Source: Oscillospiraceae bacterium (GTDB lineage Bacteria > Bacillota > Clostridia > Oscillospirales > Oscillospiraceae). From it: a DNA stretch of 32,073 bases. The DNA lies in assembly GCA_017455685.1 (NCBI GenBank), contig JAFSZH010000079.1, positions 1 through 32,073 on the forward strand, read 5' to 3'. The stretch's first letter is position 1. Every line of letters begins with the position of its first letter. A program made the position numbers and the translations under genes. The notes below the pieces were generated by a model. It worked only from the letters and a program-made list of their open reading frames with translations. It ran no database searches and was not told where the DNA came from. Below, piece after piece: positions 3,471-27,317 of the stretch.

Positions 3471-4145
3471 ATGTCTGATCGAGCCAGTTGGCGCAATGTG
3501 TTCAAAACCAGTCTGCCGGTGATGGCCGGGTATATGGTGCTGGGAATGGGCTTCGGCATTTTGCTCCATTCCCGGGGCTACGGCCCGCTCTGGGCAGCGG
3601 CCATGAGTCTTTTCATCTATGCCGGATCCATGCAGTTCGTGGGCGTGGACCTGCTTTCCACCGGAGCGGGCCTGCTCACCGCCGCGGTGACCACTCTGTT
3701 TGTCAACGCGCGGCATCTTTTTTACGGCGTCTCCATGCTGGAGCGCTATCACGGCGCCGGGGCGAAAAAGCCCTACCTCATTTTCACGCTCACCGATGAG
3801 ACCTATTCCCTGGTCTGCGGTGAGGCGGGAGAGGATCTCACTTATTGTATCCGCCTTTCGCTGCTGGATCATTGCTATTGGGTCACCGGGTCGGTGCTGG
3901 GTTCCCTGCTGACCCAGGTGCTCCCCTTTGACACCACAGGCATTGACTTTTCCCTGACGGCGCTGTTCGTTACCGTGTTTTTGGACCAATGGATGAAGTA
4001 CAGCGATCACCGGCCCGCTCTTGTCGGGCTGGGCGTCTCCGGGATCAGTCTGCTTCTGTTCGGGCCGGAAAACTTCCTGCTTCCGGCCATGGCCGGGATC
4101 CTGGCGCTGCTGCTCCTCCCGGACAGAAAGGAGGTCAAGGCATGA
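3471..4145 (+). CDS. azlC: AzlC family branched-chain amino acid exporter, large subunit
   Basis: A 224-aa integral membrane protein of the AzlC (YgaZ-like) family, the larger half of two-component exporters of branched-chain amino acids and analogues. The N-terminus has the family's conserved block: a short lead, then PVMAGYMVLGMGFGILLHSRG, followed by MSLFIYAGSMQFVGVDLL and the NARHLFYGVSMLERY segment. The rest is alternating hydrophobic helices ending in a basic LLLLPDRKEVK tail, and the length is normal. The spacing of its GAAGG ribosome binding site is long. The stop overlaps the azlD start (ATGA), implying translational coupling. The gene pair is bracketed by direct repeats of the 6S-like RNA 3' end, suggesting acquisition as a cassette. 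Confidence 0.93.
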   Translation: MSDRASWRNVFKTSLPVMAGYMVLGMGFGILLHSRGYGPLWAAAMSLFIYAGSMQFVGVDLLSTGAGLLTAAVTTLFVNARHLFYGVSMLERYHGAGAKKPYLIFTLTDETYSLVCGEAGEDLTYCIRLSLLDHCYWVTGSVLGSLLTQVLPFDTTGIDFSLTALFVTVFLDQWMKYSDHRPALVGLGVSGISLLLFGPENFLLPAMAGILALLLLPDRKEVKA

Positions 4146-4492: not shown

Positions 4493-4559
4493 AGGTTCTA
4501 ATTGGACCCCCACGACATTGCGGACCGGAGGCTGTCCCGAAAAGGGCAGCCTCTTTTTT
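4493..4559 (+). repeat. Direct repeat copy B: truncated duplicate of the 6S-like RNA 3' end
   Basis: Identical to 3318-3384 except for one G-to-A in the TTGGGCC segment and one G-to-A in the terminator loop region. The 5' two thirds of the RNA are absent here, so this copy cannot form the 6S closing stem. Homology stops abruptly at AGGTTCTAATTGG on the left and at the end of the T-run on the right. Confidence 0.95.
4529..4559 (+). terminator. Intrinsic terminator of azlCD (inside repeat copy B)
   Basis: A 9-bp stem (4529-4537 with 4544-4552) followed by CTTTTTT. It is the duplicated RNA terminator with the innermost pair lost. It is well placed to end the azlCD transcript. Confidence 0.85.
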
Positions 4560-4560
4560 G

Positions 4561-4722
4561 TTTTCAAATGAGACCCGCTTCGCTGGGCTCTCATTTGAGA
4601 AAACTGCGGCCCGCTGCATGCACTCCCTCCGGTCGCACACTTGTGGGCCGAGAAGTATTTTCGCCGACGTACACGCCGCCGGCGAAAATGATCCAGATCG
4701 TATTTGCGCCCGCGGACGCAAA
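4561..4722. repeat. Cluster of three inverted repeats in a non-coding stretch
   Basis: The gap between azlD and the 46-aa gene (4472-4781) holds, after repeat copy B, three consecutive inverted repeats. These are TTTTCAAATGAG against CTCATTTGAGAAAA (4561-4604), ATTTTCGCCG against CGGCGAAAAT (4657-4666 with 4680-4689, perfect 10 bp), and a near-perfect 20-bp palindrome starting TTTGCG and ending CGCAAA (4703-4722). None is followed by a T-run, so they are not standard terminators. No open reading frame here looks real. A REP-like or MITE-remnant origin is possible. Confidence 0.7.
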
Positions 4723-4740
4723 CTCTGCGAGGCTTCGTAT

Positions 4741-4770
4741 AAAAGGACCCGGGTCATCCGACCCGGGTCC
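4741..4770 (-). terminator. Intrinsic terminator of URO-D cassette 1
   Basis: A perfect 11-bp stem (4745-4755 with 4760-4770) with a 4-nt loop. On the minus strand it is followed by UUUUAUA. It lies 11 bases past the stop of the 46-aa gene. Confidence 0.85.
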
Positions 4771-4781
4771 TTGTAGTTTGT

Positions 4782-4922
4782 TTACCGGAAAAGCCGCATC
4801 ATGAAGCTGAAAACGGCGTCCTCATACTCCTGGAGCTTTTTGGCGCCCTCCACGTCCTTGATCTCAGGGTGCTGCGCCAGGTATTCGTCCCAGGGGATGT
4901 AATCCTTCGTTTTGAATTCCAT
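4782..4922 (-). CDS. 46-aa peptide paired with URO-D-like protein (copy 1)
   Basis: Not recognised as a known family. The 46 aa start MEFKTKDY, contain WDEY, HPEI, VEGAKK and QEYEDAVFS, and end MMRLFR. There is no signal peptide or membrane span; most of it could form one or two charged amphipathic helices. GGGAGG lies 8-9 nt before the ATG, and the gene starts 18 nt after the URO-D stop, so the two are surely co-transcribed. A second copy (6289-6429) occupies the same position in the neighbouring cassette, with 37 of 46 residues identical and no gaps, strong evidence that this is a real conserved gene. A role as a small subunit, stabiliser or cofactor-loading partner of the URO-D-like enzyme is inference. 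Confidence 0.85.
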   Translation of the reverse strand: MEFKTKDYIPWDEYLAQHPEIKDVEGAKKLQEYEDAVFSFMMRLFR

Positions 4923-4940
4923 CTGTCCGTCCTCCCTTCC

Positions 4941-6143
4941 TCAATACACCGCGTTGTCGCGGATCCACTCGCTCAGAGCCTTCAGGTTGGAGGCCACGGG
5001 CTCCGCCAGTGAGAACAGGCCCTTGTCAAAGTTGAACACGTAACCGCCGTCCGCCGCCACGATGTCAAAGAGCTTCTTGGCCGCGTCGATGCACTCCTCT
5101 TTGGTGTTGTAGCGGAGCATGTCGGACTGATAGAAGCCGGTGATGATATGCACGCTGCCGGGAGGCGTCTGCTCGGTGAAGAGCTTTTTGACGTACACGG
5201 GATCGCCCTTCTCGAACTGATAGCGGATGCTGCCGGTAAATTCGTTCATGGCTTCCATGTGCCGCATCCAGTCGTCCTCCACGAACAGATCCACGCCGTG
5301 GCCGTAGGCTACCAGGCCGTCCATGACCTTCTTCATGGAAGGATACCAGAATCTCTCGAACTGCTTGGTGCTGATGAAGCTGCCCATGTGCAGCGGGATG
5401 AAGGTCCGGTGGTTGGGGGGCAGTTTTTTGGGGTCGCTGCCCAGGCTCTCCCGGATCATCATGGGGATGATGGCGTCGCAGGCTTCCAGCAGCTTGTCCG
5501 GGCACCGGCGCATGTCGGTGTTGATCCGGGAGAAGCCCCGGAGGAAGTCGGCGATGTAGTCGAAGGGGGCGGTGGAACGGCCGCTGGCCATGCCGGGATA
5601 GCCGTACTTCTGGGAGATCTGCCGCATCATGCCGCCGATCTTCGCCATGTGGTCGGCGTTGGCCTTCATGGCCTTGGCCATGACCATGGCCCGCCGGCCG
5701 GGAGTGGTGTCCAGCTCCGTGTACAGCCGGGGCAGCAGCACCTCGATCTGGTAGGTCATGGGGTCGGCGATGTAGGCGTCGTACTCCTCGGGCTCCAGGC
5801 AGTGGACCTCGGGGTGCTGCATGACGCCGCTTTCGCTCATGATGATGCAGCGGGCGCCCAGGCTCTGGTACAGGATGGGCAGCCGGATGGCGCCCACGCC
5901 GATGGCGGTGTCGGAATAGATCTGGGAATTGATATAGTCGACGATGTCAAACCACAGATCCGGCTCCCAGAAAACCTCCCTGCGGGTCTTGCCCGGCGGG
6001 GTCACGCCCGCGTCGATGGCGTACTGGATCGTTGCTTCGAAGGCGGGGGACTGCTGAACTGGTACTCTCTTGGGCTTTTTTCCGGAATAAATGTCCCGGA
6101 ACAACTGCGCTCGCTCCTCCCGGAGCAGGTTCATATCCTCCAT
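4941..6143 (-). CDS. Uroporphyrinogen decarboxylase-superfamily protein (copy 1)
   Basis: A 400-aa soluble protein of the URO-D superfamily (TIM barrel), which includes HemE and the corrinoid:CoM methyltransferases MtaA/MtbA/CmuA. Family-like features are the N-terminal REERAQLFRDIYSGKKPKRVP block, a mid-protein HMGSFISTKQFERFWYPSMKKVMDGL segment, and the C-terminal GSVHIITGFYQ and GGYVFNFDK strands. The HemE active-site motifs are not evident. The zinc-binding His-X-Cys of the methyltransferases is also missing; the region where I expect it reads GHGVDLFVEDDW. Catalysis therefore probably differs, and it is unlikely to be HemE. It is about 79% identical to the copy at 6441-7643 by hand alignment. 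Own promoter; AGGAGG 7-8 nt before the ATG; followed by a 46-aa partner gene. No corrinoid protein is encoded nearby. Substrate unknown. Confidence 0.85.
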   Translation of the reverse strand: MEDMNLLREERAQLFRDIYSGKKPKRVPVQQSPAFEATIQYAIDAGVTPPGKTRREVFWEPDLWFDIVDYINSQIYSDTAIGVGAIRLPILYQSLGARCIIMSESGVMQHPEVHCLEPEEYDAYIADPMTYQIEVLLPRLYTELDTTPGRRAMVMAKAMKANADHMAKIGGMMRQISQKYGYPGMASGRSTAPFDYIADFLRGFSRINTDMRRCPDKLLEACDAIIPMMIRESLGSDPKKLPPNHRTFIPLHMGSFISTKQFERFWYPSMKKVMDGLVAYGHGVDLFVEDDWMRHMEAMNEFTGSIRYQFEKGDPVYVKKLFTEQTPPGSVHIITGFYQSDMLRYNTKEECIDAAKKLFDIVAADGGYVFNFDKGLFSLAEPVASNLKALSEWIRDNAVY

Positions 6144-6202
6144 TTTTATTCCTCCTCTATCCGGGTCGTCCTATTTGATCGTGCCGGATCAATTCTGTTT
6201 TC

Positions 6203-6232
6203 AGTATACCATTATCCCCGGGCAGTGTGCAA
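6203..6232 (-). promoter_or_regulatory. Promoter of URO-D cassette 1
   Basis: On the minus strand TTGCAC (6227-6232), an 18-nt spacer and TATACT (6203-6208), about 60 nt before the URO-D start. It lets cassette 1 be expressed independently of the upstream transporter/cassette 2 transcript. Confidence 0.75.
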
Positions 6233-6243
6233 GACGGGAGCAC

Positions 6244-6275
6244 AAAAAACCGGGCCGTTTCCGACCCGGTTTTTT
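6244..6275 (-). terminator. Intrinsic terminator of the transporter/URO-D cassette 2 unit
   Basis: A 9-bp stem (6249-6257 with 6262-6270, one G-U pair) flanked by A-run and T-run, so functional in principle in both directions. On the minus strand it lies 14 bases after the second 46-aa gene. Confidence 0.88.
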
Positions 6276-6288
6276 GCCGTCCATTATT

Positions 6289-6429
6289 TCAGCGGAACAA
6301 ACGCATCATCAGAGAGAAAACGGCGTCTTCATACTCCTGGATCTTTTTGGCGCCTTCCACTTCCTGGATCTCGGGATGCAGCTTCACGTATTCATCCCAG
6401 GTATAATAATCCTTCGTTTTGAATTCCAT
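6289..6429 (-). CDS. 46-aa peptide paired with URO-D-like protein (copy 2)
   Basis: Paralogue of the peptide at 4782-4922, also 46 aa, with nine substitutions, most of them conservative (for example L/V, L/I, D/E, F/L). The invariant parts are MEFKTKDY, WDEY, HPEI, VEGAKK, QEYEDAVFS and MMRLFR. GGAGG lies 6 nt before the ATG and the gene begins 11 nt after the URO-D stop. Identical length and conserved ends, alongside scattered silent changes in the DNA, indicate selection on the protein. Function is unknown. It is short enough to be missed by routine annotation. Confidence 0.85.
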   Translation of the reverse strand: MEFKTKDYYTWDEYVKLHPEIQEVEGAKKIQEYEDAVFSLMMRLFR

Positions 6430-6440
6430 GACGGTCCTCC

Positions 6441-7643
6441 TCAGTACGCACAGTTGTCGCGCATCCACTCGCTCAGAACTTTCAGGTTGGCGGCCACAGG
6501 CTCCGCCAGCGAGAACAGGCCCTTGTCGAAGTTGAACACGTAACCGCCGTCCACAGCCACGATATCGAACAGCCTCTTGGCCTCGTCGATGCAGCCCTGC
6601 TCGTCCTTGTAGCGCAGATTATCCGCCTGGTAGAAGCCGGTGATGATGTGCACGCTGCCGGCGGGAGTGTTCTCGGAGAACAGCTTCTTGATGTAGACGG
6701 GATCGCCCTTCTCAAACTGGTAGCGGATGCTGCCGGTGAACTCGTTCATCAGCTCCATGTGCCGCATCCAGTCGTCCTCCACGAACAGATTGACGCCGTG
6801 GCCGTAAGCCACCAGGCCGTCCATGACCTTTTTCATGGAGGGGAACCAGAACTTCTCAAACTGCTTGTTGCTGATGAAGCTGCCCATGTGCAGAGGAATG
6901 GTGACCCGATAGTCCGGAGAGAGCTTCTCCGGGGTGCGGCCCAGGCCCTCGCGGATCATCAGCGGCACCAGCGCGTCGCAGGCCGCCAGCACCTTGTCCG
7001 GGCAGCGGCGCATATCCATGTTGATCCTGGAGAAGCTGCGCATGAAGTCGGACAGGTAGTCGAAGGGAGCGGTGGACCGTCCGCCGGGAGCGGCGGGATA
7101 ACCGTATTTCTTGCTGATCTGAGCCATGATGCCGCCGATCTTCGCCATGTGGTCGGCGTTGGCCTTCAGGGCCTCAGCGATCACCATGGCCCGCCGGCCG
7201 GGAGTGGTATCCAGAGCGGTATAGATTCTGGGCATCAGGACCTCGATCTGATAGGTCATGGGGTCGGCGATATAATCGTCATACTCTTCGGGCTCCAGGC
7301 AGTGGACCTCGGGGTGCTGCATGACGCCGCTCTCACTCATCTGGATGCAGCGGGCGCCCAGGATCTGGTAAAGGATGGGCAGACGGATGGAGCCGGCGCC
7401 CACGGCTGAGTCGGAATAGAAGTTCGCGTTGAAATTGTCAATGACGTCGAACCAGTAATCCGGCTCCCAGTAGATGTCACGGCGGGTCTTGCCCGGCGGT
7501 GTAACACCGCAGGTGATGGCATACTCAATGGTAGCCTCAAAGGCGGGGGATTGCATGATCGGTATTCTCTTGGGTTTGATTCCGGAATAAACGTCCCGGA
7601 ACAGCTTTGCGCGCTCCTCCCGGAGCAGGTTCAAATCATCCAT
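6441..7643 (-). CDS. Uroporphyrinogen decarboxylase-superfamily protein (copy 2)
   Basis: A 400-aa paralogue of the protein at 4941-6143. The two align without gaps, with about 85 differences. These are spread over the whole length, but IPLHMGSFIS, KKVMDGLVAYGHGV, LFVEDDWMRHME, NEFTGSIRYQFEKGDPVY, GSVHIITGFYQ and DGGYVFNFDKGLFSLAEPVA are conserved and probably line the barrel's active site. Like copy 1 it lacks His-X-Cys zinc ligands. It lies 90 nt downstream of the transporter gene on the same strand with no terminator in that direction, so it is probably in the transporter operon. AAGGAG precedes the ATG. Tandem duplication followed by divergence suggests two related substrates or a hetero-oligomer. 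Confidence 0.85.
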   Translation of the reverse strand: MDDLNLLREERAKLFRDVYSGIKPKRIPIMQSPAFEATIEYAITCGVTPPGKTRRDIYWEPDYWFDVIDNFNANFYSDSAVGAGSIRLPILYQILGARCIQMSESGVMQHPEVHCLEPEEYDDYIADPMTYQIEVLMPRIYTALDTTPGRRAMVIAEALKANADHMAKIGGIMAQISKKYGYPAAPGGRSTAPFDYLSDFMRSFSRINMDMRRCPDKVLAACDALVPLMIREGLGRTPEKLSPDYRVTIPLHMGSFISNKQFEKFWFPSMKKVMDGLVAYGHGVNLFVEDDWMRHMELMNEFTGSIRYQFEKGDPVYIKKLFSENTPAGSVHIITGFYQADNLRYKDEQGCIDEAKRLFDIVAVDGGYVFNFDKGLFSLAEPVAANLKVLSEWMRDNCAY

Positions 7644-7676
7644 TCATAATCTCCTTTTCCCAACCGGGATCATGTG

Positions 7677-7718
7677 ATCCGCAGGGCGGAGAGGGAGCCG
7701 CCCCGCGGATCGTTTTTT
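7677..7718. other. Large stem-loop between the transporter and URO-D copy 2
   Basis: A 13-bp stem (7677-7689 with 7698-7710) lies in the 90-nt gap. Only on the plus strand does a T-run follow (7713-7718), so it reads as a plus-strand terminator although both flanking genes are on the minus strand. In the minus-strand mRNA it would be an intercistronic hairpin, which could protect or define the end of one message segment. Confidence 0.65.
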
Positions 7719-7733
7719 ACGCTGCCGTGCCAA

Positions 7734-9179
7734 TCAAAAGATCGCCTTGGCAAGAGGCCAGAAGATCAGCATCACGGCCGCGTACATGGCGATGATGAGG
7801 ATCATGCTGAACTTCAGCGTCTCGCCGCCGTCGATGTAGCCGTCCTTCTGGCCGATGGCCACGAAGCCGCTGCCGCCGGGAGTGGCGATGCCCATGTTGC
7901 AGAGGATGGCGACCAGGGTGCCGTAGGCCATAACGTAGCCCAGAGAGGGGGCCGCGGCCATCAGGGCGGGCACGCACACCACGATGCCGATGGTGCCGGT
8001 GACGCCGTTGGAGGCGAAGTTGGTCACGAAGATCACGAAGAACAGGAACAGCGCGGCCAGAGCGGCGACGGAGATCTTAGATGTCACGGGAGCCACCAGG
8101 GCCTTCAGGAACACGCTGATGCCGCCGCTCTCCATGTTGAACGCGGATGCGTACAGGAAGATGCAGGCGATGAAGATGACGGTGGACCAGCTGATCTTTT
8201 TGACAGCCGACTCATACTTCATGACGGGCTTGCCCTTTACGGTGATGGCGCAGATGATGGCCGTAGCGATCAGCGAGGGAATGGAAGAGCCGACGGCGCT
8301 GATCTTGGCGGCCACGCCGGGCAGGATGGAGCCGATGAAGTCAGGCAGCAGCCAGTAGATGATCAGAGCCACGTAAACGATCAGGGAGATCTTGCCTTCC
8401 TTGGTCAGGGGCTTCATCTCCGCCTTCTGGGCCTCGATGTCGTAGTTGTCGAACTTGGTGCAGTCGGGCTTGACCAGGAACTTGATGATCAGCATGGTCA
8501 GACCCAGGGTCACCAGGGACAGGGGGATGCCGATGGCCATGTATTTCAGCCAAGACACGCTCTCGTTGGTGATCTTGGCCAGATTGTTGAGCATCAGCAT
8601 GGGAACGGGGTGGCCGATGGGGGTGGCGCCGTTGCCGATGCAGGTGATCCAGAGGATGCCAAAGTACATGGCTTTTGCGAAGGTGTCGCCCTTCTTGTAG
8701 CCCAGGCTGTCCAGGATCTCCCTGGCCAGGGCCACGAACAGGATCATGACGGCGGTGGCTTCCATGAAGTAGCAGATCACCAGGTTGGCCAGGAAGAACA
8801 TCAGCAGGAACATGTAGGGCCGCTTGGCAACGAACTTCCGGGTGATGAACCAGTTGGCGATCATTTTGGTCACGCCGTGCTCCTCCAGCGCCACGCACAG
8901 GATCAGGGTGCCGATGACGATGACGGTGGTGGAGTTGCCGAAGGAGTTGGCCATGATGGTGTTGGCCGGGGCAATGCCGGTAAAGGCGAGCAGGCCGATG
9001 GACAGCATGCTGGTCCAGCCGGTGCCGTAGGTGATCCACAGGTAAATGGTGCAGATGAACAGCGACAGGGCAGATGCGCCGGCGGGAGTAATGCCCATGT
9101 CATAGCACCGGCCCAGGATGAACCGCATGACAAAGAACAGGACCGCCGCGATAAGAATGTGTATTTCCTTTTTCTTCAT
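7734..9179 (-). CDS. SLC13/DASS-family carboxylate transporter
   Basis: A 481-aa polytopic membrane permease of the SLC13 (divalent anion:Na+ symporter) type within the ion transporter superfamily. About 12 hydrophobic segments are visible. Two inverted-repeat halves carry the substrate/cation-binding signatures: SFGNSTTVIVIG (79-90) with NGATPIGHP (183-191) in the first, and TNFASNGVTGTI (386-397) with TPGGSGF (433-439) in the second. These correspond to the SNT motifs of the family, the second modified to SNG. Known members import di- or tricarboxylates, or sulfate. GGGAGG precedes the ATG. It is the first gene of the URO-D cassette 2 transcript and is divergent from a PucR-type regulator, so it probably imports the inducing compound. 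Substrate unknown. Confidence 0.88.
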   Translation of the reverse strand: MKKKEIHILIAAVLFFVMRFILGRCYDMGITPAGASALSLFICTIYLWITYGTGWTSMLSIGLLAFTGIAPANTIMANSFGNSTTVIVIGTLILCVALEEHGVTKMIANWFITRKFVAKRPYMFLLMFFLANLVICYFMEATAVMILFVALAREILDSLGYKKGDTFAKAMYFGILWITCIGNGATPIGHPVPMLMLNNLAKITNESVSWLKYMAIGIPLSLVTLGLTMLIIKFLVKPDCTKFDNYDIEAQKAEMKPLTKEGKISLIVYVALIIYWLLPDFIGSILPGVAAKISAVGSSIPSLIATAIICAITVKGKPVMKYESAVKKISWSTVIFIACIFLYASAFNMESGGISVFLKALVAPVTSKISVAALAALFLFFVIFVTNFASNGVTGTIGIVVCVPALMAAAPSLGYVMAYGTLVAILCNMGIATPGGSGFVAIGQKDGYIDGGETLKFSMILIIAMYAAVMLIFWPLAKAIF

Positions 9180-9313
9180 GAATACAATCCTCCCGAATAT
9201 TTCGATTTTTCACCGATTTTCAGAGATTTTTGTCCCATCGGTGCGCACTTTCCCAGACGGGGTGCTGTCTGTTTTTTGCGCTCCGACAAGTGAGTTCTGA
9301 TATTGATTTTTTA

Positions 9314-9331
9314 TTTCAAGTGCACTTGAAA
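9314..9331. promoter_or_regulatory. 18-bp perfect palindrome, probable operator
   Basis: TTTCAAGTGCACTTGAAA is a perfect dyad in the 219-nt space between the divergent transporter and regulator genes. Its right half overlaps the -35 box of the regulator promoter, an ideal place for autoregulation. It lies about 135 nt upstream of the transporter start. The likely ligand is the adjacent PucR-family protein, though this has not been shown. Confidence 0.7.
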
Positions 9332-9354
9332 ATAAACAAATGAATGGATATAGT
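9326..9354 (+). promoter_or_regulatory. Sigma-A promoter of the PucR-type regulator gene
   Basis: TTGAAA (9326-9331), a 17-nt spacer and TATAGT (9349-9354), 44 nt before the ATG. The -35 box is the right arm of the palindrome. No equally clear promoter could be found for the divergent transporter gene, consistent with an activated promoter. Confidence 0.72.
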
Positions 9355-9398
9355 GAAAATGGTACAAACAGACACCCGGCCCCGAAAGGACGTTTCCC

Positions 9399-10877
9399 AT
9401 GAAGCTTAGCATCAACAATCTGCTGGACTGGCTGACTCGCAGAGGCTATACCGTCGCTGCGGATATTCACAATGCCCAGCCGATCCTCACCGGCATCCGC
9501 TTTCTCAGCCAGTACAGTCCCAAAACGAGGCCCATGAACGTGGCCTACGTGGGTCCCGCCTGGCGGTACATCGAGTCCGCCAAGGGGACGATCCTGTGCA
9601 GCAAAAACGACATTGTCTACATCGACAACAGCGACACGGATCTCATCTTCAACGAGTGTATCCAGGCCTTCGACTACTACAATCAGTGGGAGATCGACCT
9701 GCTGGACGCTACCGTGTCGGACGCCAGGCTGGACCGGTTCATCGAGCTGGGCCACCGGGTGTTCCAGTCTCCCATGTTCATTTCCGGTGCCAACGGACAG
9801 ACCTACGCCATCACCCAGCAGTATCCCGCGGACATCCATCCTATCTGGAAAAACCGGCTGGAAAACGGCAATCAGCCCTATTCCATCATCGGCGCGCATC
9901 ACGACGATCCCTATTTCCAGAAGATGTATTCCAGCACCTATCCGCAGATCGCGGACTCCCCCATCTGGGGAAAGAAGATCCTGTTTTCCAACCTGCGCAG
10001 CAAGGGCGATCGGATCGGCTCGGTGATCATTTACGAATATGACCACGAATTCCACAGCGGGGACGTGCATCTGCTGGACGTTTACGCCAAGATCGTGGCA
10101 AAAGCCCTGCTGCTGCATCCCACTACGTATTTTTCCCTGTCCGAGCTGGAAAAGTCCGTGCTGGATATCCTCTCCACCGGGCAAACGAACGCCGATCAGC
10201 TTGTCAGCAAGATGCGCTCCTTCGGCTGGAAAAGACACGACCGGTATCTGGTCCTCTGCGCGGTGCCGCCCTCCGGCATCGACTCGGTGATCACAGGCCG
10301 GATCCGGGATATGATCAAAAACCGTTTTCCGGGTCTTTGTACCGTTTTGTATAACGGACGGCTGTTCGCCGTGGTCAACGGAAATCTGCTCAAACGGCCC
10401 GATCAGCTGCTGGACGATCTCAAGCAGATGACAGACGATAGGATCCGGATCGGCGTGAGCATGGAATTTTTTGATTTCAACCTGCTCTACTATCATTCCA
10501 AGCAGGCTATCGCAGCGGTGGAGAACATTCTGAACACGGATCAGATCGTCTGCCGTTTCCAGGAGATCTATCTGCAGTGCTGCCGGAAGAAGATCTCCGA
10601 CGATTTCCCGGCGCTCCAGTCCTTTATCCACCCGGATATCCAGGCTTTAGTGAAGTCCGACCAGGAAACCAACGGGGAATACGTGAAAACCCTGTACTAT
10701 TACATTCTCTGCGGCTGCAACTACCGGGAGGCCGCCCGGGCACTGCACGTCCACCGGAACACGCTGGTCTACCGGATGGAGAAGATCCGCCCCATGCTGA
10801 CGCTGGATCTGGAGGATCTGTACCAGCGGCAGGTGCTGCTGGTGTCCCTTTTCTTCCTGATGACCTTCTCTTCTTAA
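9399..10877 (+). CDS. PucR family transcriptional regulator
   Basis: A 492-aa DNA-binding regulator. The C-terminal PucR helix-turn-helix (HTH_30) is clear at about residues 430-465, containing NYREAARALHVHRNTLVYRMEKI. The large N-terminal and central part (1-250) would be the sensor region, followed by a segment resembling the GGDEF-like domain often found before the PucR HTH (about 300-400). PucR/CdaR proteins usually activate catabolic or transport genes in response to a small metabolite. It is divergent from the transporter/URO-D operon, with a palindromic site between them, so it is the probable local regulator. AAAGGA precedes the ATG. Confidence 0.88.
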   Translation: MKLSINNLLDWLTRRGYTVAADIHNAQPILTGIRFLSQYSPKTRPMNVAYVGPAWRYIESAKGTILCSKNDIVYIDNSDTDLIFNECIQAFDYYNQWEIDLLDATVSDARLDRFIELGHRVFQSPMFISGANGQTYAITQQYPADIHPIWKNRLENGNQPYSIIGAHHDDPYFQKMYSSTYPQIADSPIWGKKILFSNLRSKGDRIGSVIIYEYDHEFHSGDVHLLDVYAKIVAKALLLHPTTYFSLSELEKSVLDILSTGQTNADQLVSKMRSFGWKRHDRYLVLCAVPPSGIDSVITGRIRDMIKNRFPGLCTVLYNGRLFAVVNGNLLKRPDQLLDDLKQMTDDRIRIGVSMEFFDFNLLYYHSKQAIAAVENILNTDQIVCRFQEIYLQCCRKKISDDFPALQSFIHPDIQALVKSDQETNGEYVKTLYYYILCGCNYREAARALHVHRNTLVYRMEKIRPMLTLDLEDLYQRQVLLVSLFFLMTFSS

Positions 10878-10924
10878 TGCAAATGTAACATTCGGTTCTT
10901 CCTTGTACAATGGACCATATTGAA

Positions 10925-10977
10925 GAAAAGCGCCCCCCATTTGTGCCACATGGCACAAATGGGGGTGCTTTTCTTTC
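10925..10977. terminator. Bidirectional terminator between the pucR-type gene and recG
   Basis: A very long stem: ATTTGTGCC (10939-10947) with GGCACAAAT (10952-10960), extended by C-run/G-run pairing and flanked by A-rich and T-rich arms. It serves convergent transcripts from both sides. Confidence 0.88.
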
Positions 10978-11002
10978 ATGGAATTGCAGGACGGGTTTCC
11001 GC

Positions 11003-13054
11003 TCAGTTCCAGGTAGTTTCTTTCAGGGCGAAAAGCCGGTTGATGTGCTCCCGGAGAGGGGCCAGCTCCGGCCCGCTCAGACCGGGATGGGCCGCCATGA
11101 CGCTCTCCGCGGCGCTCTGGGCCTCCCGCAGGGTGTCCATGCCGCCGGTGAGCTCGGCGATGTGCATCTCCGGCAGGCCGTGCTGCCGGGAGCCGAAGAA
11201 GTCGCCGGGGCCCCGGAGCTTCAGATCCTGCTCCGCCACGGCGAAGCCGTCGGAGGTCTTCACCAGCACCCGGAGCCGTTCCCGGGCCTCGTCGGTGGGA
11301 TTCTGCGCCACCAGTACGCACCAGCTCTTGTGTACGCCCCGGCCCACCCGGCCACGGAGCTGGTGGAGCTGGCTCAGTCCGAAGCGCTCGGCGTTCTCCA
11401 CGATCATCAGCGAGGCGTTGGGTACGTCCACCCCCACCTCCACCACGGTAGTGGAGACCAGGATATCCGTCTCGCCCCGGACGAAGGCGGCCATGGCCGC
11501 GTCCTTCTCTTTCGGTTTCATCTTGCCGTGGACGCAGCCCACCGTGAGGTCCGGGAAGGTCTTTTGCAGCGCCTCGGCGTGCTCGGTGGCGGACTTGACC
11601 CCCTCCAGGGTCTCGCTGTCCTCCACCATGGGGCAGACCACGAACACCTGCCGCCCCTCGGCCACCTGGGCGCGGATGAACCCGTTGAGCCGTGCGCGGT
11701 ATTCCTCGGTGACGGACACGGTGTCCACCTTCTGCCGCCCGGGGGGCAGCTCGTCCAGCACGGACACGTCCAGATCGCCGTAGATCATCAGCGCCAGGGT
11801 CCGGGGGATGGGCGTGGCGGACATGACCAGCACGTGGGGCCGCTGTCCCTTGGCGGTGAGAGCGGAGCGCTGCTCCACGCCGAAACGGTGCTGCTCGTCG
11901 GTGACCGTCAGCCCCAGCCGGGCGAAGGCCACGTCTTCGGTGAGCAGGGCGTGAGTCCCCACCAGCACGTCGTAAGCCCCGTTCTCCGCCGCCGCCTTGA
12001 CCTCCCGCTTCTGTTTGGCGGTGAGGGAGCCGGTGAGCAGCCCCACCCGGAGCCCCAGGGGCTCCAGCAGGGTGGTGAGGGTGGTCATATGCTGCTGGGC
12101 CAGGATCTCCGTGGGGGCCATGAACGCTCCCTGATACCCGGCCTTCCACACGCTCCACAGCAGGGCCGCCGCCACCAGGGTCTTGCCGCTGCCCACGTCG
12201 CCCTGGACCAGCCGGGACATGCAGCCTCCGGAGGCCATATCCGCCGCGGCCTCGGAGATCGCCCGGCGCTGGGCCGCCGTAGGGGCGTAAGGCAGGGAGG
12301 CGTAGAACTCCTCCATGTCCGCCGTCGGGATGGGGAAGCCCGCCGCCTTCTCCCGCCGGCCCCGCAGCAGCTGCATGGCGCAGGAGAGCACGAACAATTC
12401 TTCAAAGATCAGTCGCCGCCGGGCCAAGGCCAGAGATTCATAATCCGGCGGAAAATGAACGTTCCGGTAAGCGTAGCCCGCCTTGGGCAGGGCGTACCTT
12501 TCGCTGATCTCCCCGGGCAGGAGCTCCGGGAGCATGTCGCCGCACTCGTCCAGCGCGCACTCCATGGCGGTGATCAGCAGCTTGTTGGAAATGCCGTGGG
12601 TCAGCCGGTACACCGGCAGGATCCGGCCGGTGGTGATCCCGGCGCGGTCCTCCCGCTCGTAGATCGGGTTGGTCATGGTCTTGCGCAGCAGGGAGCCGCC
12701 CACCTTGCCGTAAAAGACGTAGCTCTCCCCCGCGTGCAGCTGATCCCGGACATAGCTCTGGTTGAAATAGGTCACGTCCGCGCTGCCCGTTTCGTCCACG
12801 ATGCGCAGCTTCACCAGATCCATGCCCCGCCGCACGTGGGTCAGCCGGGGCTCTGTGGCCACCATGGCCCGGATGCAGACGGTCTGCTCGGGCAGCACCT
12901 CCGCGAGAGTGCGCGTCACCGTCCGGTCCTCGTAGCCCCGGGGAAAGTAGTTCAGCAGGTCTCCCAGGGTATGGATGCCCAGGCGGGCCAAAGACTTGGC
13001 CCGCTGCTCGCCGACGCCCTTTATGTAGCGGATGTCCGTGTGCAGATCCGGCAT
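11003..13054 (-). CDS. recG: ATP-dependent DNA helicase RecG
   Basis: A 683-aa branch-migration helicase acting on stalled forks and Holliday junctions. The N-terminal wedge/OB region starts with a helix-hairpin-helix-like IKGVGEQRAKSLARLGI. Helicase motifs are GDVGSGKT (Walker A, about 287), DEQHRFGVEQR (motif II, about 386), MSATPIPRTLAL (motif III) and, in the C-terminal lobe, QLRGRVGRG (motif VI). The DEQH rather than DEAH box is typical of RecG. Length is normal. The start is one nucleotide after the stop of the ABC-F gene, so translation is probably coupled. It is the last gene of the SEDS-PBP-ABCF-recG operon. Confidence 0.97.
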   Translation of the reverse strand: MPDLHTDIRYIKGVGEQRAKSLARLGIHTLGDLLNYFPRGYEDRTVTRTLAEVLPEQTVCIRAMVATEPRLTHVRRGMDLVKLRIVDETGSADVTYFNQSYVRDQLHAGESYVFYGKVGGSLLRKTMTNPIYEREDRAGITTGRILPVYRLTHGISNKLLITAMECALDECGDMLPELLPGEISERYALPKAGYAYRNVHFPPDYESLALARRRLIFEELFVLSCAMQLLRGRREKAAGFPIPTADMEEFYASLPYAPTAAQRRAISEAAADMASGGCMSRLVQGDVGSGKTLVAAALLWSVWKAGYQGAFMAPTEILAQQHMTTLTTLLEPLGLRVGLLTGSLTAKQKREVKAAAENGAYDVLVGTHALLTEDVAFARLGLTVTDEQHRFGVEQRSALTAKGQRPHVLVMSATPIPRTLALMIYGDLDVSVLDELPPGRQKVDTVSVTEEYRARLNGFIRAQVAEGRQVFVVCPMVEDSETLEGVKSATEHAEALQKTFPDLTVGCVHGKMKPKEKDAAMAAFVRGETDILVSTTVVEVGVDVPNASLMIVENAERFGLSQLHQLRGRVGRGVHKSWCVLVAQNPTDEARERLRVLVKTSDGFAVAEQDLKLRGPGDFFGSRQHGLPEMHIAELTGGMDTLREAQSAAESVMAAHPGLSGPELAPLREHINRLFALKETTWN

Positions 13055-13055
13055 A

Positions 13056-14921
13056 TCAGTCGCTCAGCTCCTCCCATTGGACGTACAGTTCTTCCAGCGC
13101 CGCGTCCGCCGCGGCCTTCTCCGCCTCCAGCTCCATAAGCCGCTGGTAATCAGAGGCGCTCTCCTCCATGGCTTTTTCCAGCGCGGCGATGGCGGCCTCG
13201 CTGCGCTCGATATCCTTCTCGATCTTTGAGCGCCGTCGGTCCCGGTTGGGCTCGGTCTTTTTCTTAGGCGCTTTCTGCCGCTGGACGGTCTTTTCCGTCT
13301 GTTCCAGGGCCTCCATGCGCTTGCGGTACTCCCGCCAGGCCTGGAAGCCGCCCTTGAAATCCTCGATCTTCCCGTCCCGGAGACACCAGATCCGTTCCGC
13401 GAATTTCTCAATGAACCACCGGTCGTGGCTGACGAACAGCAGCGCCTCGGAATAGTCCGCCAGCGCGTCCTCCATCCACTCCCGGCTGATCAGGTCCAGG
13501 TGGTTGGTGGGCTCGTCCAGCAGAAGGAAGTTGATGTCATCCCGCATGAGCACGCACAGCCGCAGCCGGCTCTGCTCTCCGCCGGAGAGCACCGACACGG
13601 TTTTGAACACGTCCTCGCCCCGGAAGCCGAAGGCCGCCAGCCGGTCCCGGGCGGTCTGGGTATCGCACTTCGCCTCCCAGAGCATGGTGTCCACCATGTC
13701 CCGCTCCGGGTCGTCGAAGCTCACCAGCTGGGGCAGGTAGGCGCTTTTTACCGAAGGGCCCATGTGGACCCAGCCCTTGTCCGGCGTCTCCTCCCCGGTG
13801 ATGCACCGGAGCAGGGTGGACTTGCCGGTGCCGTTGTCCCCGATGAGGGCGATACGCTCCCCGGCCTCCACCAGCAGCTCCACGTCGTCGAAGAGCCGCT
13901 TCTCTCCGTAGCTCTTGGCCACCTCCGAGAGCACCAGCACCTCGTCGCCGAAAAACTCCTTCTGCCGGAAGCGGACGGTGAGCTTTTTCTCCTCCGTGGG
14001 CTTTTCCGCCTTTTCCAGCCGGGCGATCCGCTTTTCCATGGAGAAAGCCCGCTTATGCAGCTTGTCGTTGCCCATGAAAGCCCACAGATGCAGATCGTCC
14101 GCCGCCTTCTGCAGGTGGGCGATCTCCTTCTGATTCTTCTCGTAGATCTTCAGCGCCTCCTCGTAGCGGCGGCGCTTCTCCTGGGCGTAGAAGGTGTAGT
14201 TACCGTTATAGACCTCGGCCTTTCCGTCCACGATCTCGATGATCCGCTGTGCCACCGTGTCCAGGAACCACCGGTCGTGGGAAATGGCCAGTACCGTGCC
14301 CTTGAAATGGAGCAGGTAGTCCTCCAGCCACTCGGTGGCGTGCATGTCCAGGTGGTTGGTGGGCTCGTCCAGCAGCAGGATATCCGTGTCCTCCAGGATC
14401 AGCCGGGCCAGGTTCACCCGGGTCTTTTCCCCGCCGGACAGCGACTCGAACAGCTGCTCGCGCATGGCGGGCGGGATATCCAGTCCGTTGGCCACCCGGT
14501 TGCGGCGGACCTGGGAATCGTAGCCTCCCAGGGTCTCGAAGCGGGTGAGCAGCTCGTCGTATTCCTCCAGAATGTCCCGGTCGGCGGAGACGGTCATCAG
14601 CTGCTCCAGCTTCCGCATCCGCTGCTGCATGGCGTCCAGCCGGGCCTCGGCGGTGGCGAGCACGTCCTCCACCGTATAGCCCGCCGGGTAGCGGGGGATC
14701 TGGGACACCAGCCCCATCCGCTTGCCCCGAGCCACGTCGATATCGCCCTTATCCTCGCTGATCTCGCCGATCAGCAGCCGGAACAGCGTGGTCTTCCCTG
14801 CCCCGTTGCGGCCCAGGATGCCGACGCGCTCCCCGTGCTGCACCTGAAAGGTGAGCCCGTCCAGAATATTCTTTTTGACCTCAAAGGCCTTGGTCAGATT
14901 GCGTACCGAAATGTCGATCAT
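13056..14921 (-). CDS. ABC-F family ATP-binding protein (YdiF/Uup-like)
   Basis: A 621-aa soluble protein with two ABC ATPase domains and no membrane part, as in the ribosome-associated ABC-F translation factors. Domain 1 has GRNGAGKTT (about 37-45), LSGGEKTRVNLARL and LLLDEPTNHLD. Domain 2 has GDNGTGKST, LSGGEQSRLRL and LLLDEPTNHLD. An arginine/lysine- and glutamate-rich linker joins them, and the C-terminal 90 residues form a predicted coiled coil as in Uup/YdiF. The true start is the ATG at 14921, overlapping the PBP stop (ATGA). An antibiotic-resistance role cannot be inferred from sequence alone. Confidence 0.93.
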   Translation of the reverse strand: MIDISVRNLTKAFEVKKNILDGLTFQVQHGERVGILGRNGAGKTTLFRLLIGEISEDKGDIDVARGKRMGLVSQIPRYPAGYTVEDVLATAEARLDAMQQRMRKLEQLMTVSADRDILEEYDELLTRFETLGGYDSQVRRNRVANGLDIPPAMREQLFESLSGGEKTRVNLARLILEDTDILLLDEPTNHLDMHATEWLEDYLLHFKGTVLAISHDRWFLDTVAQRIIEIVDGKAEVYNGNYTFYAQEKRRRYEEALKIYEKNQKEIAHLQKAADDLHLWAFMGNDKLHKRAFSMEKRIARLEKAEKPTEEKKLTVRFRQKEFFGDEVLVLSEVAKSYGEKRLFDDVELLVEAGERIALIGDNGTGKSTLLRCITGEETPDKGWVHMGPSVKSAYLPQLVSFDDPERDMVDTMLWEAKCDTQTARDRLAAFGFRGEDVFKTVSVLSGGEQSRLRLCVLMRDDINFLLLDEPTNHLDLISREWMEDALADYSEALLFVSHDRWFIEKFAERIWCLRDGKIEDFKGGFQAWREYRKRMEALEQTEKTVQRQKAPKKKTEPNRDRRRSKIEKDIERSEAAIAALEKAMEESASDYQRLMELEAEKAAADAALEELYVQWEELSD

Positions 14922-16225
14922 GATGCATAATACCCGTTCGCAAGTTGAAGTACGTGATTGGCCACGCCGCCCGCGGCGATCAGGCCGCCGCCGCCCTGTT
15001 CCAGGATCACCGCGAAAGCCAGCGGCGGGCCGGAGCGCAGATATCCCACGAACCAGGCGTGGGTCGTGCCGTCGCCCAGCTCGGCGGTGCCGGTCTTGGC
15101 GCAGAGATCCAGATAGGGGAAGTTGTTTTTCCCGTAGGAATACACCACGTTGTAGTTCATGCACGCCCCCAGGTATTCCGCCGTGTCGGCGTCCATGATC
15201 CGCTTTTCCCGGCCCTTGTCCCCGGCCAGCAGGGTCCCCTCCCGGACGACGCCGCCGTTGGCGACGCCCGCGCACAGCCGGGCCATGGCGTAGGGGGTCA
15301 CCAGATCGTTGTACTGGCCGATGCCGGACCACGCCTCCGGGGTGGTGCCCCGGGCGGCCACGTCGAAGCGGCCGGGATTGGTGGCTCCGCCCGCGTAGGG
15401 CAGCGCCCCGACGACGCCCAGCTTCCGGGCGGTCTCATAGATGGTCTGCCCGCCCAGCTCCACGGCGAGTTTGGCGAAGGCCACGTTGCAGGAGTTGGCA
15501 AAGGCCTGCTCAATGGTCTGCTCCCCGTGGACGCCGGTGCAGTTCACCGGCTCGCCGTAGTACTCCACGCTGCCGTCGCAGGTGAAGACGCGGCTCTCCA
15601 GATCCGGGATGTGCTCTCTGGCGGCGGCCAGGGTCACCAGCTTGAACACCGAGCCGGGAATGTACCCCGCGCTGGTGACACGGTTGATATAGTAGCCGTC
15701 GGCGGAGGTCCGGGGCCCTACGGCCGGGTCGTAGGAGGGCGAGGACACCATGCACAGGATCTCGCCGGTTTTGTAGTTCATCACCACCACCGCCCCCGGG
15801 CGGCCGTTGAGGGCGTACCAGGCGCCGGCCTGGAGCCGGCTGTCCAGAGAGAGCGCCACCGTCTCCCCCGCGCCGGAGGTGCCCTCGATGAGGTCGTACC
15901 CCGCCAGCTTGTCGGCGTAGAGCTCCATGGCGGTCAGATCGACGTTGCCCCGGTGGTCCCCCACCGCGTGGAGGGAGGCGAAGCGCACCGCCTCCTCGTC
16001 GGCGTAGGTGTAATCCCCGCCCGAGGCGGTGGCGAGCACCACGCCGTTCCGGTCGGTGAGGGTGCCGGAGTGGAGCACTCCGGCGGTATAGATGTGCTCG
16101 TTGGCGGAATAGGTGGCCCATTCCCGGCCGTGGAGCGCCAGCCGGGAGAGGAAGATCCCCAGCCCCGAGAGCACCAGCAGCGGAAGTACAAGGGCGATCA
16201 GCGCCCGGCGGGAGAGCTTGTTCAT
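14918..16225 (-). CDS. Class B penicillin-binding protein (PbpA/FtsI-like transpeptidase)
   Basis: A 435-aa monofunctional transpeptidase with one N-terminal membrane anchor (about 8-30). It has the three penicilloyl-transferase motifs SVFK (192-195, nucleophile Ser), SCN (245-247) and KTG (377-379). The short N-terminal region resembles actinobacterial PbpA rather than long FtsI/PBP2, matching the sub-450-aa length. The start overlaps the stop of the SEDS gene by ATGA, consistent with a SEDS glycosyltransferase and its cognate PBP forming one synthase. Whether it serves elongation, division or sporulation cannot be decided here. Confidence 0.93.
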   Translation of the reverse strand: MNKLSRRALIALVLPLLVLSGLGIFLSRLALHGREWATYSANEHIYTAGVLHSGTLTDRNGVVLATASGGDYTYADEEAVRFASLHAVGDHRGNVDLTAMELYADKLAGYDLIEGTSGAGETVALSLDSRLQAGAWYALNGRPGAVVVMNYKTGEILCMVSSPSYDPAVGPRTSADGYYINRVTSAGYIPGSVFKLVTLAAAREHIPDLESRVFTCDGSVEYYGEPVNCTGVHGEQTIEQAFANSCNVAFAKLAVELGGQTIYETARKLGVVGALPYAGGATNPGRFDVAARGTTPEAWSGIGQYNDLVTPYAMARLCAGVANGGVVREGTLLAGDKGREKRIMDADTAEYLGACMNYNVVYSYGKNNFPYLDLCAKTGTAELGDGTTHAWFVGYLRSGPPLAFAVILEQGGGGLIAAGGVANHVLQLANGYYAS

Positions 16226-17763
16226 GCTCTGTCCCCCCTTCCGCCGGTTTTTTTTGGCGCGGGTTTTTTCGCCGGGGCGGTCTTCCCGGCGGGCTTCTTT
16301 GCGGTCGGTTTGGTCGCCGCCGGTTTCTTTGCGGTCGGTTTCTTCGCGGAAGCCGTTTTGCCCGCAGCGGTCCCGGCCGCGCTCTTTTTCCCGTTGGATT
16401 TATCCGCAGGCTTTGCGGGCGCTTTTTTCCCGGTCCCCACGGCGGTGAGATGGAGCCGCTCCCCCGCCCGGAGGAAAGCCAGCATGCCCCAGCAGCCCAG
16501 CAGACTGGACCCGCCCCGGGACACGAAGGGGAAGGTCACGCCGGTGAAGGGCAGCAGGTCCAGCGAGCCGAACACGTTCAGCGCCGTCTGGGCGAGGTAC
16601 ATGGTCACGGCCCCGCAGCCCGCGGCGTAGTAAGCTCCGCTGTACACCCGTCCGGCGCTGAACACCGCGTAGGCCGCCAGCAGGATCAGCAGCAGCACGC
16701 AGCACACCGCCGGGATCAGTCCCAATTCTTCAGAAACCAGAGCGAACACCAGATCCGTGTTGGCGGCGTAAACGTCCTTGAGCCAGCCCGTACCGGCTCC
16801 CCGGCCGAAGCAGCCGCCGGCGGCCAGGGCCGACATGGCCCGGACCTGCTGGTAGCCCTTGCCCAGAGGGTCCTCCCACACGTGGCCCCAGCTGGAAAAC
16901 CGCTGGGCCACGTAGGGGTAGCGCGTCACCACCAGCGCCACCGCGGCTCCCGCCGCGGCCACGGCCAGCAGGATCAGAGGGATGCTGCCCGAGCGCATAT
17001 AGGCGATGACCAGATAGGCCACAAAAAACACCAGCGCCGTGCCGAAGTCCCCCATGAGGGCCAGGAGCCCCACGCACACCGCCGAAAAGCCCGTGAAGAT
17101 CAGCACGCTCCGGCGGGAGAGTTTGTCCATGGCGGCGGTGCCCGCGTACAGATACAGGATCTTCACCAGCTCGGAGGGCTGGAAGGTGCTGTTGGATACG
17201 CGGATCCAGCTTTTGGCCCCGAAGACCGTGTCGCCCAAAACCAGCGTGACCGCCAGAACGGCCGCGGCGGCGAGCCCTGCCGGCAGGGGAAGCCGCACCG
17301 CCAGCCGGCTGTGCCGCAGATAGAGCAGCATGATGGCGAACATGCTCAGGGCGCTCAGGTACAGCAGGCTCTGCTTGACCATGCCGTCCGGGGTGGAGGT
17401 CCCCGCCACGGCGAAGCCCACGCCCGTGAGGAAGAAGGCGATCAGCTCCGGGAAGAAGCCGGGCAGGTCCCGGCCCCGCTCCAGCAGAAAGCAGCCCCAC
17501 TCCCCCGCCGTCAGCACGGCGAAGCCCAGAAGCATCCCCGCCGCGTGCTCCGGCCCGGAGACCAGAAGCTGCAGCAGCGTCAGCAGCTGAAAAAGCGTGA
17601 CGAGCAGCAGCGTGACCCCGTCCCGCTTCCTCACGGAAAGGCGGGCGGTGTCGCCCCTGCCGGCGGCGATCACCGTTCGGGCGCAGCGGAGAGTGATCCA
17701 CGCGGCCAGCAGAGAGAGCGCCATGCCCGTATATTGATAAAAAAGAGTTCGGGTCGGGTCCAC
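16222..17763 (-). CDS. SEDS family peptidoglycan glycosyltransferase (FtsW/RodA-like)
   Basis: A polytopic membrane protein of the SEDS family, which polymerises lipid II. Family features include FQPSELVKILYLYAGT and DFGTALVFFVAYLVIAYM. The C-terminal half has AALAAGGCFGRGAGTGWLKDVYAANTDLVFALVSEELG and LLPFTGVTFPFVSRGGSSLLG, the latter being the hallmark PFVSRGGSS. After the last helix comes a roughly 70-residue tail very rich in Lys, Ala, Pro and Thr with KKPA/KKPT repeats, absent from standard RodA. The frame also opens with TTG at 17769, but AAGGAG would then be only 2 nt away; GTG at 17763 gives an 8-nt spacing and is chosen. First gene of the operon. Confidence 0.92.
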   Translation of the reverse strand: MDPTRTLFYQYTGMALSLLAAWITLRCARTVIAAGRGDTARLSVRKRDGVTLLLVTLFQLLTLLQLLVSGPEHAAGMLLGFAVLTAGEWGCFLLERGRDLPGFFPELIAFFLTGVGFAVAGTSTPDGMVKQSLLYLSALSMFAIMLLYLRHSRLAVRLPLPAGLAAAAVLAVTLVLGDTVFGAKSWIRVSNSTFQPSELVKILYLYAGTAAMDKLSRRSVLIFTGFSAVCVGLLALMGDFGTALVFFVAYLVIAYMRSGSIPLILLAVAAAGAAVALVVTRYPYVAQRFSSWGHVWEDPLGKGYQQVRAMSALAAGGCFGRGAGTGWLKDVYAANTDLVFALVSEELGLIPAVCCVLLLILLAAYAVFSAGRVYSGAYYAAGCGAVTMYLAQTALNVFGSLDLLPFTGVTFPFVSRGGSSLLGCWGMLAFLRAGERLHLTAVGTGKKAPAKPADKSNGKKSAAGTAAGKTASAKKPTAKKPAATKPTAKKPAGKTAPAKKPAPKKTGGRGDRA

Positions 17764-17798
17764 AGCCAATACTCCTTAACGAAAACACATACATAGTT

Positions 17799-26673: not shown

Positions 26674-26702
26674 TTGAAACTGCGGTTTTTCCCTTGTATA
26701 AT
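26674..26702 (+). promoter_or_regulatory. Sigma-A promoter of the PPTase gene
   Basis: TTGAAA (26674-26679), a 17-nt spacer and a perfect TATAAT (26697-26702). Only six bases separate the -10 box from the ATG at 26709, so transcription should begin at or next to the start codon. Confidence 0.85.
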
Positions 26703-26708
26703 AAGCAC

Positions 26709-27317
26709 ATGGAAATTTATTTCGTCAACGTTGAACAGCTTGCGGGAAAAGAGGACGCGGCCCTGGCGCTGCTGTCTCCCGCCCGGCGGGAAAAGGCGGA
26801 GCGGCTCCGCTTCGGCCCGGCCCAGCGTCAGAGCCTCGGCGCGGGGCTGCTGCTGCGGCACGTCTTCGGTCCCCGGGACCCGGCGATCGCGCCGGGCGGC
26901 AAGCCTTTTTTCTCCGGGGAGGCGGAATTCTGCCTGTCCCACAGCGGCCGCTTCGCCGCGCTGGCGGTGTCCGGGGAGGCTGTGGGGCTGGATCTGGAAA
27001 CCGTGGCCCCCGTCCGGGAGGCGGTGATCCGCCGGGTGCTCACGCCCGAGGAACGCCGCTGGCTCGCCGACGCCGGAGAAGCGGGCTTCGCCTTTCTCTG
27101 GACCCGGAAGGAGGCCGCGCTGAAGCTGCTGGGCACCGGCGTCGACCGGTCGCTCCGCTCCTTCCGGGTGCTGCCGGAGGACGAGCCCATGCTGGACGGG
27201 CGGCGGATCTGCCTGCGTACCATCCGGTGGGAGGACTGCGTGCTCACCGCCGCGGCGGAGGCGCCCTTTTCCCTGCCGGAGCTCCGGGAGCTCCCGGCGG
27301 AAGAATTGCTCACATAA
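26709..27317 (+). CDS. 4'-phosphopantetheinyl transferase superfamily protein
   Basis: A 202-aa enzyme that transfers phosphopantetheine from CoA to carrier proteins (Sfp-like). The N-terminal half has FCLSHSGRFAALAVS, matching the SHS block of the family. The Mg2+/CoA site is GLDLE (93-97) followed by FLWTRKEAALK (129-139), the (W)xxKEAxxK signature. It is shorter than Sfp (224 aa). An upstream in-frame TTG at 26694 is excluded because it overlaps the promoter. No ribosome binding site is possible if the mRNA starts at the ATG, so leaderless translation is likely. Its carrier-protein substrate is not in the window. Confidence 0.92.
   Translation: MEIYFVNVEQLAGKEDAALALLSPARREKAERLRFGPAQRQSLGAGLLLRHVFGPRDPAIAPGGKPFFSGEAEFCLSHSGRFAALAVSGEAVGLDLETVAPVREAVIRRVLTPEERRWLADAGEAGFAFLWTRKEAALKLLGTGVDRSLRSFRVLPEDEPMLDGRRICLRTIRWEDCVLTAAAEAPFSLPELRELPAEELLT

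Follow-up and report, generated by a model that had tools for sequence, protein, structure and literature searches.

The locus considered here raises a simple question: why is each of two tandem genes for proteins of the URO-D superfamily followed, after a few nucleotides (nt), by a gene for a protein of only 46 amino acids (aa)? Both units lie on contig JAFSZH010000079.1 of an Oscillospiraceae bacterium, within a stretch of 32,073 nt that was analysed as a whole (the window). The answer that we regard as probable is that the 400-aa protein is an MT1 and that the 46-aa protein is its stoichiometric subunit: a C-terminal helical domain, split off from the enzyme, that would bind the URO-D protein of its own unit and be required for activity. 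We infer both the physical binding of the small to the large protein and the MT1 function in this organism. The four genes are as follows.

6441..7643, minus strand: URO-D-superfamily gene A, 400 aa, probable MT1 of a corrinoid demethylase (Pfam PF01208, 33.4 bits)
6289..6429, minus strand: small partner gene A, 46 aa (profile E 1.9e-23, the protein itself being among the 13 profile sequences)
4941..6143, minus strand: URO-D-superfamily gene B, 400 aa, tandem duplicate of A (Pfam PF01208, 37.9 bits)
4782..4922, minus strand: small partner gene B, 46 aa (profile E 8.3e-24, likewise among the 13 profile sequences)

Both 400-aa proteins exceed the Pfam URO-D gathering score of 23.9 and also have the barrel fold by the fold test. 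They are 79% identical to each other over a gap-free alignment, while the two 46-aa proteins share 37 of 46 residues and have common ends (MEFKTKDY and MMRLFR). The distance from the URO-D stop to the start of the small gene is 11 nt in unit A and 18 nt in unit B, and the two small genes are preceded by Shine-Dalgarno matches of 6 and 5 nt. The coordinates and alignments thus agree with the original prediction, which had described two such tandem units and a ribosome binding site for each small gene. Between the copies, the ratio of nonsynonymous to synonymous substitution rates (dN/dS, Nei-Gojobori) is 0.227 for the large genes and 0.177 for the small ones, the latter a rough value from only 25 synonymous sites. 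Neither ratio is near 1 and the frames are intact, so that both genes of each unit are under purifying selection, as the proposed joint selection would have it. In a tree smaller than the one described below, the window URO-D proteins are sisters with a support of 98, and their relative from a goat-gut metagenome-assembled genome (locus L021), itself part of a URO-D/small pair of the same kind, falls outside them. From these sequences, the URO-D gene and the small gene were most likely duplicated jointly, as one unit, after the split from L021, in line with the joint duplication originally suggested.

The distribution of the partner extends far beyond this cassette, a point absent from the original prediction. 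A scan of genome contigs with the two window URO-D proteins gave 11 loci (L021-L031). A small gene of the same kind, with about 30-70% identity, lies directly 3' of the URO-D gene in L021, L023 (twice), L024, L025, L026, L029 (twice) and L031; in L025, from Eubacterium callanderi, it is about 50% identical and in the equivalent position. In L027 and L028 a sequence of the same kind is fused in frame to the URO-D C-terminus, L030 has a divergent 62-aa open reading frame (ORF) at the partner position, and L022 is uninformative as its URO-D gene reaches the contig end. Adjacency in distant Clostridia and the in-frame fusions bear out the idea of a conserved partner. A profile was built from 13 small sequences, including both from the window, in which W11 and E34 are invariant, and was searched against 398 Bacillota genomes, 34 of which contain matches at E≤0.1. 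Among the 40 matches listed at E<0.01, 25 were retrieved as loci (L032-L056, L032 being the window), and in all 25 the small match is adjacent or fused to a URO-D ORF. The original note had asked whether matches to the small gene always follow a URO-D-like gene, and at this level of the profile search they do in all 24 loci outside the window. Of the next five loci, L058 adjoins or is fused to URO-D, while L057, L059, L060 and L061 do not (E 0.02-0.054). When distinct profile matches are pooled (E≤0.01, upstream DNA present), 66 of 66 are adjacent (44) or fused (22) to URO-D, a count that is biased because the loci were mostly selected via URO-D; two edge matches besides these are small gene A of the window. 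One small-profile match, at 9590-9715 of contig C42 in genome G397, has an internal TAA and is possibly a decayed copy.

These relatives bear on whether the small ORF might instead be a leader or regulatory peptide that acts by translation or attenuation. Such a role would fit the terminator-like hairpin that lies within about 25 nt of the end of each window small gene:

6247..6267, minus strand: hairpin resembling an intrinsic terminator, directly 3' of small gene A
4743..4772, symmetric stem listed on the plus strand only: 13-bp palindromic hairpin, terminator-like, 3' of small gene B

The hairpins are weak evidence alone, since six were found in the region and 3.9 are expected from shuffled sequences, and an Rfam scan of 4500-11200 gave no matches at the gathering thresholds. 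The small gene also comes after the enzyme gene, not before it, is conserved as a protein by the dN/dS given above, and occurs as in-frame fusions to the enzyme; a leader peptide is thus very improbable.

The reverse question, how many URO-D genes have a partner, was addressed with a URO-D profile search of the 398 Bacillota genomes (at most four candidates scored in each) and five genomes of named loci. Matches occur in at least 79 of the 398 genomes, and in the five of named loci as well. Regions were fetched for most of the matches listed, and after removal of duplicates 258 ORFs of at least 60 bits were retained. A partner was scored as fused if there is a C-terminal extension of at least 40 aa, and as separate if an ORF of 37-75 aa led by a Shine-Dalgarno match starts between -45 and +125 nt from the URO-D stop. 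By this rule 139 ORFs have a separate partner, 58 a fused one and 50 neither, and 11 are unclassifiable, which gives 197 of 247 with a partner; the background rate of the separate-ORF rule is 17 of 227 other long genes in the fetched loci (a narrower locus set). An early census of 152 of 164 with a partner was overstated, as it consisted mostly of top-scoring matches, and the 73 ORFs added later include 37 without. The added ORFs often have no partner, so the association is claimed by clade and not for the superfamily as a whole. The rule has errors in both directions. It misses a small ORF that is visible by eye in L133, L088, L270 and the first copy of L029 (missed on account of its Shine-Dalgarno match and relabelled before the trees were built), and L257 passes it in the wrong frame, the correct frame being visible by eye. 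Conversely L128, L140 and L008, in partner-free clades, are positive by the rule with ORFs that do not resemble the small proteins.

Within single genomes the pattern is sharper. The rule assigns a partner to each of the 21 URO-D genes examined in the window's own genome, two of them from the window and 19 from outside it; 18 partners are separate and three fused, and the weakest candidate is L240 (contig C63; 37 aa, GTG start). In genome G549, which has a stretch 100% identical to CdmB of Acetobacterium dehalogenans, no small ORF lies behind cdmB (locus L227), while the five other long-class matches all have a partner (three separate, two fused). The same genome has 22 shorter URO-D proteins (open frames of 325-380 aa) without a partner, 20 of them by the rule, and the two rule matches lie within the next gene. 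Further PF01208 genes have no partner by the rule, two in G549 and four in E. callanderi; the genome of E. callanderi has 30 URO-D profile matches, and that of a second member of the Eubacteriaceae has 22. In four genomes (L259, L260, L261 and L272) a partner-free URO-D gene (open frames of 446-490 aa) and a partner-bearing one share a strand at a distance of about 1-3 kb, an arrangement that would suit a single system with two MT1-like proteins.

A FastTree tree of 259 rows (237 long-class and 22 short-class, the latter from A. dehalogenans, with ten near-copies dropped) separates carriers from non-carriers. Six clades, of 20, 11, 10, 4, 42 and 101 rows (supports 91, 97, 86, 100, 95 and 96), bear the partner, and two, of 16 and 33 rows (support 99 each), are free of it. 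In the six carrier clades 188 of 188 rows have a small partner (184 by the strict rule, four by eye; 53 fused), a count limited, to the disadvantage of our interpretation, by the remaining rule-positive ORFs of these clades having been read in lists. In the two other clades 49 of 49 rows are without (46 by the rule, three by eye). The window proteins fall in the 101-row clade and CdmB in the 16-row clade, where 14 of 16 rows are without a partner by the rule and the two rule-positives look spurious. The original prediction took URO-D homologues that lack the small gene as evidence against a partnership; such homologues do exist, yet they sit in clades of their own (the 49 rows, plus the shorter proteins) and are not scattered among the carriers. 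By size, OdmB and VdmB presumably belong to the short class. PMC13222342 describes both as close relatives of CdmB, itself long-class in this tree, so that this placement is uncertain.

Fused and separate forms change into one another at least four times on the 259-row tree (twice on a smaller one). Such alternation might suggest that the small gene is the decaying remnant of a C-terminal domain after gene fission. The ribosome-binding sites, intact frames and purifying selection speak against decay, as does the presence of the partner in every row of six clades after inspection of four rule misses, and this is the most improbable of the explanations considered. If the tree, which has long branches, is rooted on the short class (an assumption), the long class would have had the partner from early on, with one or two later losses; their number depends on a weak branch (support 37). 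W292 and D373/K374 (numbered as in the window protein) occur commonly in carriers and hardly ever in non-carriers. These residues follow the clades, and carriers L162 and L274, with type-2 small proteins, have no D-K pair, so the pattern may merely reflect descent and is only a hint. H252 and E289 had appeared to be linked to the partner when 15 partner-free rows were available, but with 49 such rows this fails (H252 is present in 45, E289 in 46), and their loss is confined to CdmB-like rows.

The two partners have also diverged in step. Pairwise distances of small and large proteins correlate with r=0.783 over 82 pairs, those that the type-1 (window-type) small profile recognises out of 187 rule-positive pairs, whereas shuffles reach at most 0.157. 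When swaps are restricted to partners within three multi-pair genomes (9, 5 and 19 pairs), the mean is 0.674 and the maximum 0.726, and none of 1000 reaches the observed value, which indicates that paralogous pairs moved as units. Shared descent alone also produces a fit of this kind between partners.

What the large protein does is best judged from its relatives. In L023 the unit is preceded by genes whose products are, by Pfam, a pterin-binding methyltransferase and a corrinoid protein, and L029 has similar-looking ORFs. With such genes ahead of the unit, the 400-aa protein is most likely a corrinoid-dependent methyltransferase, the MT1 of a corrinoid demethylase, and not a decarboxylase; the context of L023 is one of methyl transfer, unlike HemE with its role in haem synthesis. 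For neither window URO-D protein is there any NCBIfam model at E≤1, in a library that presumably contains a HemE model. MtaA/MtbA-type zinc methyltransferases have a His-X-Cys...Cys zinc-binding motif; the strand that we take to be equivalent is conserved as FVEDDW in the present proteins, with no Cys. Elsewhere in the window's genome, a metagenome-assembled genome of 1.9 Mb that is 72% complete, there are two corrinoid-protein matches (PF02607) and two RACo-type activators (PF14574), and a few corrinoid carriers seem to serve many substrate enzymes. This genome has 12 matches to one window URO-D protein (P0003) at E≤1e-20, and eight genomes of the same genus have 0-2.

The only sequence match in the PDB is CdmB (9rui; profile E 2.5e-39), the chloromethane dehalogenase MT1 of A. 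dehalogenans. It resembles the window proteins in its URO-D fold and in the same C-terminal tyrosine at the end, and differs in having no small partner and in having W and Q where they have H252 and E289. According to PMC13222342, CdmB is the MT1 of a corrinoid system, was crystallised as an isolated protein, and has in its barrel a hydrophobic cavity thought to lock around cobalamin. O-demethylases of the OdmB/VdmB/MtvB type and MtaA-type proteins belong, according to PMC13222342 and PMC10418091, to the same superfamily as the window proteins. A precedent for a small protein acting on a one-carbon methyltransferase is given by MtrI and MtrR of the methanogen Mtr complex (PMC12774963, PMC13370731). 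These concern another enzyme in another domain of life. Going by the titles, one is a binder that responds to stress and the other a modulator dependent on H2; neither is a subunit whose gene follows that of every enzyme or is fused to it. In the mec cluster, PMC10344839 gives a predicted ORF of 37 aa between mecI and mecJ that was undetected as a protein. For the URO-D-type enzymes, searches of the open-access literature, supplements excluded, turned up no small subunit, and here too the original prediction stands. A corrinoid demethylase with a URO-D-type MT1 is thus known, while a very small second subunit tied to a whole branch of these enzymes appears to be new.

As to how such a subunit might act, the small protein would consist of a short aromatic N-terminal segment and then a hydrophobic C-terminal helix, would pack near the open face of the barrel, and would help to close the cavity in which the Co(I) corrinoid protein and the methylated substrate come together. 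CdmB, partner-free, would handle tiny gases via internal channels; by this reasoning a lid or a docking surface would be the obvious job for a helical subunit. The binding place and the lid role are more speculative than the subunit itself. In the model of the L028 fusion, the added block has helices at 419-425 and 427-431 and a long C-terminal one at 435-456, with a predicted local distance difference test (pLDDT) score of 65-84. The structure-search rows (VIA) cover model residues 5-384, that is, without the small domain, and no entry of the viral structure library matched at E≤0.001. An alignment of the separate small proteins with the fusions was rejected, as MAFFT put whole ones on the QHPEVH motif and their second halves elsewhere; only the first halves were retained in the fusion alignment.

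The small protein could also be an MT1 subunit that docks the corrinoid protein (or MT2) and does not close the substrate cavity. A common docking element would be useful where 21 URO-D genes with a small protein face two corrinoid matches in an incomplete genome, and the invariance of W11 and E34 would suit it. Against this, CdmB functions with a corrinoid protein of its own although no small partner accompanies it, and the small proteins diverge with their enzymes where a shared docking element might be more uniform; we consider docking possible but rather unlikely. A smaller probability still attaches to a non-catalytic role, either as an assembly or stability factor or as a tether to a membrane or transporter through the hydrophobic C-terminal helix. 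The hydrophobic C-terminal ends of most listed small proteins and the transporters among the neighbouring genes would fit such a role, while the repeated changes between fused and separate forms favour a permanent subunit and the last helix, from its sequence, looks too short to span a membrane.

Several further points weigh against a small subunit needed for MT1 activity. The model of the L027 fusion shows a disordered linker and a weak small domain, the block from residue 401 having a pLDDT of 30-73; residues 395-441 are under 50 and the final helix alone is moderately confident. CdmB and 48 other rows have no partner and CdmB crystallised alone, so the fold itself does not need one. No corrinoid or MT2 gene was found beside the window cassette, and no member of a partner-bearing clade with a known activity was identified. 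Finally, the type-1 profile gives more than 8 bits for only 82 of the 187 rule-positive pairs, and the various types of small protein may not all be homologous.

These types occupy the same position and are of similar size, and most have a hydrophobic C-terminal stretch. The window type reads SKYYxTWEEYxxxHPEI and then YEExxFxFIMxLL. Another, of 55-60 aa, has CVPW near the start and FIWFWVQR at the end and occurs fused too; a type of 40-50 aa has YPEG and FLPE; a further one, in genomes G402, G328 and G353, is SWSDIVKEHPELADKD; and there are others besides. Neither the window small proteins nor seven representative small proteins reach a Pfam cut-off, and NCBIfam gives no matches at E≤1, so that the 46-aa protein belongs to a family for which neither Pfam nor NCBIfam has a model. 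At a size of 40-60 aa and with no family model, such a subunit would be easily overlooked.

A broader proposal, which we put forward tentatively and hold to be somewhat doubtful, is that a large branch of URO-D methyltransferases consists of two-subunit enzymes in which the small subunit completes the active site or forms its lid, that fusions, separations and one or two losses went along with changes of substrate, and that CdmB lost the subunit on turning to small gases. Anaerobic bacteria probably use these B12-linked enzymes to strip methyl groups, and the present data suggest an overlooked second subunit in them. Uncharacterised URO-D-type methyltransferases occur by the tens in acetogens and gut Clostridia; if the subunit is needed, a large protein expressed alone would show the wrong activity or none, which may partly explain why few substrates are known. 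The small gene would be a simple marker for this enzyme class, and the natural fusions ready single-chain versions for structure and assay work.

Two neighbouring genes may belong to the same system:

7734..9179, minus strand: DASS/CitMHS-type anion transporter gene, upstream of URO-D gene A and in the same direction
9399..10877, plus strand: divergent gene for a PucR/CdaR-type regulator (Pfam HTH_30 and GGDEF_2)

The transporter is a probable importer of the substrate and scores 73.4 bits with Pfam CitMHS, 69.6 with Na_sulph_symp and 105.4 with NCBIfam dass, under the cut-off of 198.6 for the last. Its DASS type suggests a methylated organic anion as substrate. A transporter gene of the Na_sulph_symp/CitMHS type also adjoins the E. 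callanderi relative L025 (7405-8787), hinting at a similar anionic substrate for the two cassettes. The regulator is probably substrate-responsive. The other window genes that were scanned (214-2457, 3471-4145, 11003-13054, 14918-17769, 23331-24548, 24579-26596, 26694-27317, 28902-29834 and 30115-32043) look unremarkable in Pfam: a transglycosylase/transpeptidase penicillin-binding protein, AzlC, RecG, a transpeptidase beside an FtsW/RodA-type protein, a transglutaminase-like protein, AsnA beside a WYL regulator, a phosphopantetheinyl transferase, a PfkB-type kinase and FeoB.

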